A stretch of DNA of 64,000 bases, taken from NCBI GenBank assembly GCA_017886575.1, contig JAGHJP010000055.1:1-64000 (forward strand). Reading direction: 5' to 3'. Shown here one piece after another: positions 8,627-11,792 of this stretch. The DNA comes from Clostridia bacterium. Lineage in GTDB: Bacteria > Bacillota > Clostridia > Christensenellales > Borkfalkiaceae. Numbering within the stretch: the stretch's first letter is position 1; each line of letters starts with the position of its first letter. A program made the position numbers and the translations under genes. Under the pieces are notes generated by a model that saw only the letters and a list, made by a program, of their open reading frames with translations, searched no databases and had not been told where the DNA came from.

Positions 8627-9370
8627 TTATTTGCTTTTTTTACGTTTTTTCTTCTCTTCGAGCATTTTCGCGTGCTCGTCGCGCATGGCGATGAGGCGGT
8701 CGCGCAGTTTGCCGTCCGCCTCCGCCAGAAGTTCCTGGGTCAGTTTCTGCCCGTAATATTCGCTGAGTTCGAACGGTTCGCCGATGACGACGTGATTGAG
8801 GCGGAACATGCGGGTCTTTTTATAGCAGAGGATGGGCACGACGGGCGTTCTGGTCTTGATGGCGAGCATCGCCGCGCCGCTCTCGAAAGGCAGCAGCTCC
8901 CCGTCCTCCGTCCTGTTGCGTTTGCCCTCCGGGTAGATGGCGATCTTCTCCCCGTTTTTCAGGCAGCGGAGGGCATCCATCAGCCCGCGCACGTCCCCGC
9001 CGTCCCGTTCGAGGAAGATGACCTTCGCCGCGCGGCAGACCGCGCCGACGACGGGCGTGTCCCTCAATTCACTCTTTGCGAGGTAATGGATCCCCTCCGT
9101 CGTCGTGGCGGGCGGGAACGCGACGTCCCAGATGCGGTAATGATTGCCGATATAGATGCATGCGCCGTCCTTGACTTTGCTGTTGCCGTAAAAACGGAAG
9201 GGATAGATCAGCCAGACGATGGGCAGCAGAATGATGCGCAGAAACATCAACATGCCGTTCACGTGCCGACCCTTTTTGTTCGCGGGCTGTAAGATATCGT
9301 TTTTCTTTCTTTTTTCTGCCTTTTGCGCGGCGGGGATATTCACGCCCGCCTCTTTTCGTTGTTCGTCCAT
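8627..9370 (-). CDS. plsC: 1-acyl-sn-glycerol-3-phosphate acyltransferase family protein
   Basis: A 247-residue member of the LPLAT/PlsC family that adds the second acyl chain in phosphatidic acid synthesis at the membrane. The catalytic H-x4-D motif is NHYRIWD near residues 83-89, and the acceptor-binding block reads YPEGKRNRTEDGELLPF. An amphipathic or hydrophobic helix (MLMFLRIILLPIVWLIY) precedes the catalytic domain. The gene starts 4 bp after the cytidylate kinase stop and is followed by ispH-rpsA, so the three genes are probably cotranscribed. The N-terminal 35 residues are Lys/Arg-rich and variable. Confidence 0.9.
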   Translation of the reverse strand: MDEQRKEAGVNIPAAQKAEKRKKNDILQPANKKGRHVNGMLMFLRIILLPIVWLIYPFRFYGNSKVKDGACIYIGNHYRIWDVAFPPATTTEGIHYLAKSELRDTPVVGAVCRAAKVIFLERDGGDVRGLMDALRCLKNGEKIAIYPEGKRNRTEDGELLPFESGAAMLAIKTRTPVVPILCYKKTRMFRLNHVVIGEPFELSEYYGQKLTQELLAEADGKLRDRLIAMRDEHAKMLEEKKKRKKSK

Positions 9371-9374
9371 AAGG

Positions 9375-10388
9375 TCAGATTTTCTCCTGGATCTTCTCTC
9401 GTATGAAGGCGACCGCCTGCTCCACGGTCATGTTCGATGTATCCACCGTGACGGCGTCCGCGGCGCGGCGCAGGGGCGAAACGGCGCGGTTTGCGTCCTG
9501 TTTGTCCCGCGCTTCGATCTCCTTCGTCAGTTCGTCGAGGTCGATTTGCGTATTCCCTTTTTCCCGCAGTTCTTTCCACCGCCTTTCGGCGCGTACCCGC
9601 GCGTCCGCCGTCACGAAAAATTTGAAGGGAGCGTCGGGCAGCACCGCCGTGCCGATGTCCCTGCCGTCCAGAACGCAGGACTGCTTTCCGGCGATCTCCC
9701 GCTGCTTCTGCACCATCTTTTTGCGCACGCTCCCGAGCTTTGCCACCGACGAGGCGAGCATGGAAATTTCGTTTTTGCGTATCTCATCGGAGACGTCTTC
9801 GCCGTTGAGGAGAGTGCGCTGCGCTCCGTTTTCATAGCGCACGTCGACGTCCGCCTCCTCGATGGCCGCCTCCGCCGCGGCGGCGTCTTCGGGCGAGATG
9901 CCCTTGCGGTAGAGCTGCAGGGCGCAGGCGCGGTACATGGCGCCCGTATCGAGGTACAAAATGCCGTAAGCGGCGGCGAGCGCCTTGGCGATGGTGCTCT
10001 TGCCGCTTCCCGCGGGGCCGTCCAGCGCAACGGCGAATTTGCGGGAAATGTCCCTGCGGAGGGACGCCGCCTTGCCGAGATAGACGTGCTTTTCTTTCTC
10101 CGTCAGCCCTTCCGCGAAGATCATCACGCGGATGCACAAGGGCAGCGCGCCCTCTATATCCGGTTCGGCGGCCGAAAAGAGCGCCGTCTTTTCAAAGCCG
10201 CACTCCCGCGCCGCCTTGGCGGGATAGCAGGAACGGATGTCCTGCGTCGTGGAAAAAATAATGGCCTTGAGGTTGTCCTCGTCCAGTCCGTTCGCCACTT
10301 TGAGCGCGCGGAGCAGTTCGCCCGTCTTGCCCTTTATCTCTTCGGGCGTATCCCGTTCAACGGTGATCGCCCCGCGAATGATGTTCAT
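9375..10388 (-). CDS. cmk: AroH-type chorismate mutase fused to cytidylate kinase
   Basis: A 337-residue fusion. Residues 1-115 are a complete AroH-class chorismate mutase (chorismate to prephenate): IIRGAITVERDT carries the Arg equivalent to B. subtilis Arg7, Glu75 aligns with Glu78, Arg87 in CIRVM with Arg90, and Tyr103 in HVYLGKA with Tyr108; the Cys75 position is Ser. Residues 116-337 are a CMP/dCMP kinase with the P-loop GPAGSGKST and the segments DTGAMYRACAL and DGRDIGTAVLPDAPFKFFVTAD. The linker is essentially absent. The usual Cmk is about 220 residues, so the N-terminal enzyme is a true addition. It heads the cmk-plsC-ispH operon behind a good promoter. Confidence 0.93.
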   Translation of the reverse strand: MNIIRGAITVERDTPEEIKGKTGELLRALKVANGLDEDNLKAIIFSTTQDIRSCYPAKAARECGFEKTALFSAAEPDIEGALPLCIRVMIFAEGLTEKEKHVYLGKAASLRRDISRKFAVALDGPAGSGKSTIAKALAAAYGILYLDTGAMYRACALQLYRKGISPEDAAAAEAAIEEADVDVRYENGAQRTLLNGEDVSDEIRKNEISMLASSVAKLGSVRKKMVQKQREIAGKQSCVLDGRDIGTAVLPDAPFKFFVTADARVRAERRWKELREKGNTQIDLDELTKEIEARDKQDANRAVSPLRRAADAVTVDTSNMTVEQAVAFIREKIQEKI

Positions 10389-10456
10389 AAAATAATTCCG
10401 TCCTTCTGTGTCGTCCCGTCGCCGCAGGAAACCAAACCGGCGGCGACCATACCGGT

Positions 10457-10568: not shown

Positions 10569-11792
10569 TCATTTTATTGAATTTCCCGCCGCATATCCCG
10601 TGGAAAAGGCGATCTGCAGGTTGAATCCGCCCGTGAGGGCGTCCGCGTCGAGCGTTTCGCCGCAAAAATACAGCCCCTTCACCAATTTGCTCTCCATGGT
10701 CCTGGGATTTATCTCCCCGACGTTCACGCCGCCGCAGGTGACGACAGCTTCCTCGAAGCCGCGCAGGGATACGGGGCGCAGGGAATATCCCTTGAGCGTG
10801 CGCACGAGCGCGCGCCGCTCCTCCTTCGTCACGGCGTTCACTTTCTTGTCGGGCGATATGCCCGCTTTTTCCAAAACGCAGGCGATCGCCTTGGCGGGCA
10901 AGAGCCCCCCGAGCGCGTTAAAAACGCACTTGTTCTTGCACTCCGAAAAATCACGCAGCAGCCGGGCATCGAGCTTTTCCTCATCCAAAGCGGGCTTGAA
11001 GTCGATGAAAAGTTCAAAATTTTTAAGGTCTTCCCGCGCGGCGAGCGCAGAAAAAGTCAGAACGAGCGGGCCCGAAACGCCGTAGTGCGTGAAGAGCATT
11101 TCGCCGAACCCTTCATAGTACTTTTTGCCCTCCCTCTTTGCCGACAATTCGACGTTTTTCAGGGACAGTCCCTGCATTCTTATGCAGTCGCCGCCCTCGA
11201 TGTTGATGCCCGTGAGCGAAGGCTTCGGTTCGACGATCGTGTGCCCCGCCTTGCGAGCAAGCCGATAGCCGTCGCCCGTCGAGCCCGTGGAAGGATAGGA
11301 AAGTCCGCCCGTGCAGACGATGACGGCATCGCAGGAATATCGGGCTTTATCAGTAATTATGTCAGACATAGTACTGTCTATAATTGTAAAATCAAAGACT
11401 TTTTCGTTCAAATGCACGTCCACGCCGACTCGGTCGCAGGCGCGGGCAAGCGCCTTGGTGACGTCGCTGGCGCGATCGGAGACGGGAAAAACGCGGTTGC
11501 CCCGCTCCGTTTTGACCTTGACGCCGTTTGCCTCGATGAGCGCTTTGACGTCCTGCGGCGTAAATGAGTAGACCGCGCCCGTCAGGAATTTTTTATTGCG
11601 GACAACGTGTTCCAAAAACGCGGCGGGCGGCACGTCGTTGGTCAGGTTGCACCTTCCCTTTCCCGTAATATATATTTTTTTTCCGAGTTTTTCATTCTTC
11701 TCGATGAGCAGCACGCGGTTGCCGTTCATTGCGGCGGCATACGCCGCCACGAGTCCCGATGCGCCCCCGCCGATGACGATGACGTTTTTCAT
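10569..11792 (-). CDS. NAD(P)/FAD-dependent oxidoreductase, HI0933/BaiN family
   Basis: A 407-residue flavoprotein of the HI0933-like family. The N-terminal Rossmann motif VIGGGASGLVAAYAAAM, the signature GKGRCNLTN and the C-terminal GGVNVGEINPRTMESK and GFNLQIAFSTGYAAG segments are all present. Some relatives (BaiN) reduce bile acid intermediates, but most family members have no proven function, so no substrate is assigned. The palindromic repeat at 11354-11374 lies inside the gene near codon 143, encoding the stretch around STMSDIITDK. It has its own promoter and a leader of about 150 nt. Confidence 0.88.
   Translation of the reverse strand: MKNVIVIGGGASGLVAAYAAAMNGNRVLLIEKNEKLGKKIYITGKGRCNLTNDVPPAAFLEHVVRNKKFLTGAVYSFTPQDVKALIEANGVKVKTERGNRVFPVSDRASDVTKALARACDRVGVDVHLNEKVFDFTIIDSTMSDIITDKARYSCDAVIVCTGGLSYPSTGSTGDGYRLARKAGHTIVEPKPSLTGINIEGGDCIRMQGLSLKNVELSAKREGKKYYEGFGEMLFTHYGVSGPLVLTFSALAAREDLKNFELFIDFKPALDEEKLDARLLRDFSECKNKCVFNALGGLLPAKAIACVLEKAGISPDKKVNAVTKEERRALVRTLKGYSLRPVSLRGFEEAVVTCGGVNVGEINPRTMESKLVKGLYFCGETLDADALTGGFNLQIAFSTGYAAGNSIK
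11354..11374. repeat. Palindromic repeat, copy 1 (inside the BaiN-like gene)
   Basis: The core TATGTCAGACATA is a perfect palindrome around a central A, with right flank GTAC. It is one of six related copies in the window and is read in frame within the oxidoreductase gene. Confidence 0.7.

Follow-up and report, generated by a model that had tools for sequence, protein, structure and literature searches.

The window, a 64,000-nucleotide stretch of a clostridial genome, contains a single uninterrupted reading frame at 9375..10388 on the minus strand. It starts with ATG and encodes 337 amino acids. Residues 1-115 (10044..10388, minus strand) are an AroH-type chorismate mutase domain that keeps R5, R61, E75, R87, Y103 and R111, and residues 116-337 (9378..10043, minus strand) are a CMP kinase domain with the P-loop DGPAGSGKST and the nucleotide-binding sequence DGRDIGT. 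The two domains meet almost without a linker at residues 112-117 (RDISRK; 10038..10055, minus strand). The frame and its Pfam and NCBIfam matches confirm that this AroH-Cmk fusion is real. A Shine-Dalgarno-like GAAGGA, read by eye, lies before the AroH start (10401..10406, minus strand), and congeners carry similar sites, AAGGAG or AGGAG, at the same place, also by eye.

The neighboring genes are all on the minus strand. A flavoprotein of the HI0933 family lies upstream (10569..11792). Downstream are a PlsC-type acyltransferase (8627..9370), which starts 4 bases past the fusion stop, and an IspH-RpsA fused gene (NF000907; 6454..8538). Domain matches and locus comparison bear out the operon place assigned in the initial annotation, with the fusion between the flavoprotein gene and plsC, followed by ispH-rpsA. 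The block of flavoprotein, aroH, cmk, plsC and ispH-rpsA genes is common across the order and in several other Clostridia, with aroH and cmk either fused or unfused.

Both halves appear complete, as the initial annotation had claimed. The Pfam model CM_1 (PF07736) matches residues 3-114 with 115 bits (cut-off 27), and the NCBIfam equivalog for AroH, TIGR01796, is passed with 101.1 (cut-off 82). In the same frame, Cytidylate_kin (PF02224) matches residues 120-334 with 235.7 bits (cut-off 26), and the Cmk equivalog TIGR00017 is passed with 222.7 (cut-off 135.55). The description of AroH as a single-domain (monofunctional) protein does not apply, as Cmk is fused in the same frame. In an alignment with solved AroH enzymes, Arg5, Glu75, Arg87 and Tyr103, correctly named as catalytic from the outset, fall at the equivalent positions. 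Arg61 and Arg111 should be added to these four, and each of the six is invariant across the fused homologues (27 of 27). The kinase P-loop and DGRDIGT are likewise conserved in the alignment.

Solved structures match each half separately, and for the AroH half these include AroH of Thermus, Clostridium thermocellum and Bacillus. An AlphaFold2 model of the fusion, for which 47 window and locus sequences were used, has a mean pLDDT of 94.6 and a pTM of 0.77. Its predicted AroH part superimposes on 1ode with an rmsd of 1.3 Å (TM 0.89 by target length), and so has the fold of solved AroH; its predicted kinase part matches Cmk structures from several bacteria. AroH enzymes are trimers, and the fusion is therefore probably a trimer carrying three kinases.

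The initial annotation had named one finding that would speak against a bifunctional chain, namely a separate start near 10043 that makes only the kinase, with the AroH region untranslated or inactive. The stretch from residue 96 to residue 150 contains a single in-frame ATG, GTG or TTG codon, a TTG at residue 144. As this codon follows the P-loop, no complete kinase can begin internally, and we rejected a separate start for the kinase because the region between the domains offers no usable start codon.

In the window's genome, PF02224 has a single match, the fused kinase. CMP kinase is normally considered necessary. As a side observation, the same operon block occurs with aroH directly followed by plsC, cmk being missing, at L114 (in genome G054), L136, L140-L142, L144, L145, L147, L148 and L167; these cmk-less blocks come from family f19 and from elsewhere in the order survey. 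We found neither a full-length PF02224 CMP kinase nor a PF13189 match exceeding the cut-off of that family in 13 genomes of genus g36.

For the order survey, we examined 396 genomes and scored fusion length as CM_1 in a frame of 330 residues or more. CM_1 is present in 87 of the 396 genomes, and 35 of these 87 have it in such a frame. Within the window's family, f1, a fusion-length frame is found in 28 of the 29 genomes that carry AroH. The exception, L156 (G333:C52), is also a fused gene, but its frame is broken within the kinase part, through either an error or a genuine frameshift. Fused relatives also turn up in many contigs of public genomes obtained from different samples.

In a tree of AroH plus Cmk sequences, the fusions of family f1 form one clade (support 100/99). 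Fusions are also found outside this clade, in G053 (family f18), in two f32 groups, in L016, which neighbors an f32 member, and in L022. A common origin for all the fusions is rejected (p-AU 2.7e-7). The tree needs about six changes, five of them forced by well-supported branches, and these counts do not distinguish fusion from later splitting. Repeated fusion is best explained by the prior gene arrangement: aroH and cmk were already abutting neighbors in a widespread operon, where deletion of a few bases eliminates a stop and a start and leaves the two proteins connected through their natural ends.

Two cases make this step visible. In a pair of near neighbors from f18, one frame of the unfused L123 reads LRPDLV-stop-V-M-RYSIAIDG, and the fused L117 reads LRPDLV-RYSIAIDG, with nine bases fewer (TAA GTT ATG). 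In the other such pair, the frames of the unfused L160 overlap, with LRKDLFYEHCN-stop lying over MNIAIDG, and the fused L016, with one base fewer, reads LRKDLFMNIAIDG. For the window's own family, we infer a similarly tiny deletion from these two other cases in which it is seen directly. The distance from Arg111 to the P-loop Asp is 10-12 residues in nearly all fusions, including the independent ones, and only L022 differs, with 41. Such a constant joint is what joining two natural ends would give, although a junction so constant across several origins could also have a structural role beyond this.

The fused AroH domain is the only chorismate mutase that we found in the window's genome. A family search reveals no CM_2 (AroQ) mutase there, and a second chorismate mutase, whose possible presence the initial annotation had raised, was not found. 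The genome also has one chorismate synthase and one stand-alone prephenate dehydratase (PDT) of 269 amino acids without a mutase domain. Among 61 relatives, CM_1 occurs in 16, CM_2 in 37 and both in 0 (Fisher p 4e-9, treating genomes as independent of kinship). The 396 genomes of the order give the same picture, with AroH in 87, AroQ-type mutases in 250 and both in 0, versus ~55 expected without correction for ancestry. As a genomic rule for this order, AroH and AroQ mutases substitute for each other. PDT in fused genomes is mostly encoded by short frames of ~260-320 amino acids without CM_2, whereas most unfused f1 members have CM_2-PDT proteins of ~380-390 amino acids. The mutase switch is found inside family f1 and even inside one genus, where G006 has the fusion and G023 combines CM_2 with a bare kinase.

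The pathway is not seen to be complete in every carrier, since G053 and G054 have AroH and no PDT match, and the window's genome (G000, 92% complete) has PDT and no match to PF02153 (prephenate dehydrogenase, TyrA). The fused genomes G012, G014, G015 and G029 likewise have PDT and no PF02153 match. Cells with these PF02153-negative genomes may import tyrosine, or the gene may have been missed.

One member of the window's genus, G002, lacks the AroH half. The G002 kinase clusters with those of the window's genus and starts MNVIR-EDISKKLNIALDG, that is, with the first five residues of AroH in frame with the junction, which here reads EDISKK. The window protein, for comparison, reads MNIIR...RRDISRKFAVALDG. 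Family searches of G002 detect no PDT, no prephenate dehydrogenase and no mutase of either fold. The simplest reading of these sequences is that the AroH half was excised in frame from a former fusion once prephenate was unused, and that translation of the kinase would still begin at the AroH start codon. Elsewhere in this genome, at ~4665-5948 of L115 (G002:C49), the chorismate synthase gene has an in-frame stop and the adjoining shikimate-pathway frames look open; the stop reflects either pathway decay or an assembly error. Within one order and in the same operon, the gene pair thus occurs as separate genes, as genes parted by just one stop codon, as a fusion, and as a fusion from which one half has apparently been excised, which affords a clear view of how fusions form.

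We propose that the gene encodes one bifunctional housekeeping protein, combining the cell's only mutase, which would serve the stand-alone PDT, with its only recognizable CMP kinase, at independent sites and born by fusion of abutting genes; from the sequence evidence, we assign this reading a probability of about 0.84. The N-terminal half would convert chorismate to prephenate, to be passed to the separate PDT for phenylalanine synthesis, and the C-terminal half would convert CMP to CDP. A deletion of a few bases at the abutting stop and start would have joined aroH and cmk, and each active site most likely acts without influence from the other. We infer both activities, the trimer and the independence of the sites. 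The initial annotation had envisaged aromatic amino acid synthesis and CMP recycling on one chain, but a joint purpose is not supported, given the repeated fusion of abutting genes and the reactions themselves, which have no substrate or product in common. The congener G002, which seems to have discarded the AroH half and the downstream phenylalanine gene and kept the kinase, also speaks against it. Metabolic coupling of the two halves is not indicated, and a fusion of this type (a "Rosetta stone" link) need not imply joint working, because operon adjacency alone suffices as an explanation.

A functional hub is nevertheless conceivable, in which the tight joint lets nucleotide binding by the kinase and the trimeric mutase affect each other, tying phenylalanine supply to the pyrimidine state. 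The several origins of the fusion, the 10-12-residue spacing retained even in independent fusions, and the position of Arg111, which belongs to the active-site region and stands just a few residues before the kinase, are consistent with this idea. However, the joint length is also the outcome of joining natural ends, the halves share no metabolite, many relatives have both genes separate, and G002 retained the kinase without AroH, so we regard the hub as improbable. It is a still weaker proposition that the AroH half is a remnant, either inactive or a structural cap, and that the kinase alone matters. G002 does without this half, and its activity in the fusion is a prediction. However, pairwise dN/dS of the AroH half is 0.05-0.24 where estimable, with some pairs saturated, and similar for the kinase half, so the AroH half is under purifying selection. 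We rejected an AroH pseudogene on these values and the invariant catalytic residues. The stand-alone PDT also requires prephenate, for which the fused AroH is the sole mutase found, in keeping with the mutual exclusion of AroH and AroQ.

The fusion might also be an artefact, an assembly or sequencing error having erased the stop between aroH and cmk. The window does come from a draft genome in 61 contigs, and the one-base case of L016 depends on a single draft genome. For the window's family, this explanation is already refuted by the prevalence of fusion-length frames, which share the same joint where inspected, and by the strong support for the fused f1 clade; overall, we consider its probability negligible. 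The preferred reading remains that of a bifunctional protein with independent sites.

Literature searches returned only incidental co-mentions of AroH and Cmk and no description of their fusion, in agreement with the initial annotation, which knew of no described role. The architecture is apparently undescribed, although UniProt or InterPro entries, which lay outside the search scope, may exist, and it would add a bifunctional combination of two well-studied enzymes. The available part of a 2005 study (PMC1173090) shows that aro genes are linked to cmk and rpsA in many bacteria (aroF being its name for EPSP synthase) and describes many proteins in which TyrA or AroQ is fused to another aromatic enzyme; AroH-Cmk is not mentioned in that part. 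Three other Cmk fusions in NCBIfam match the query, none with AroH.

The nearest described relative is the bifunctional AroA-Cmk protein (3-phosphoshikimate 1-carboxyvinyltransferase / cytidylate kinase, NF008816), which also has an aromatic-pathway enzyme N-terminal to Cmk. However, the partner here is AroH chorismate mutase, with another fold and another pathway step. NF008816 matches only the kinase part of our protein (model positions 443-656; 190.9 bits versus a cut-off of 943), which does not have the EPSP synthase domain. Pantoate-beta-alanine ligase/Cmk (NF010004) and Cmk/Der (NF007071) likewise illustrate that Cmk has repeatedly been fused to unrelated enzymes, but their partners are different and include no aromatic enzyme. 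The AroQ-PheA and AroQ-TyrA proteins, as treated in the available part of PMC1173090, also place a chorismate mutase within a bifunctional protein. However, their AroQ-fold mutase is joined to the enzyme that acts next in its own pathway, whereas here an AroH-fold mutase is joined to an enzyme of another pathway. IspH-RpsA (NF000907), close downstream in the same operon, is similar in that two neighbors without an obvious metabolic link form one chain, although it involves different genes and is already catalogued.
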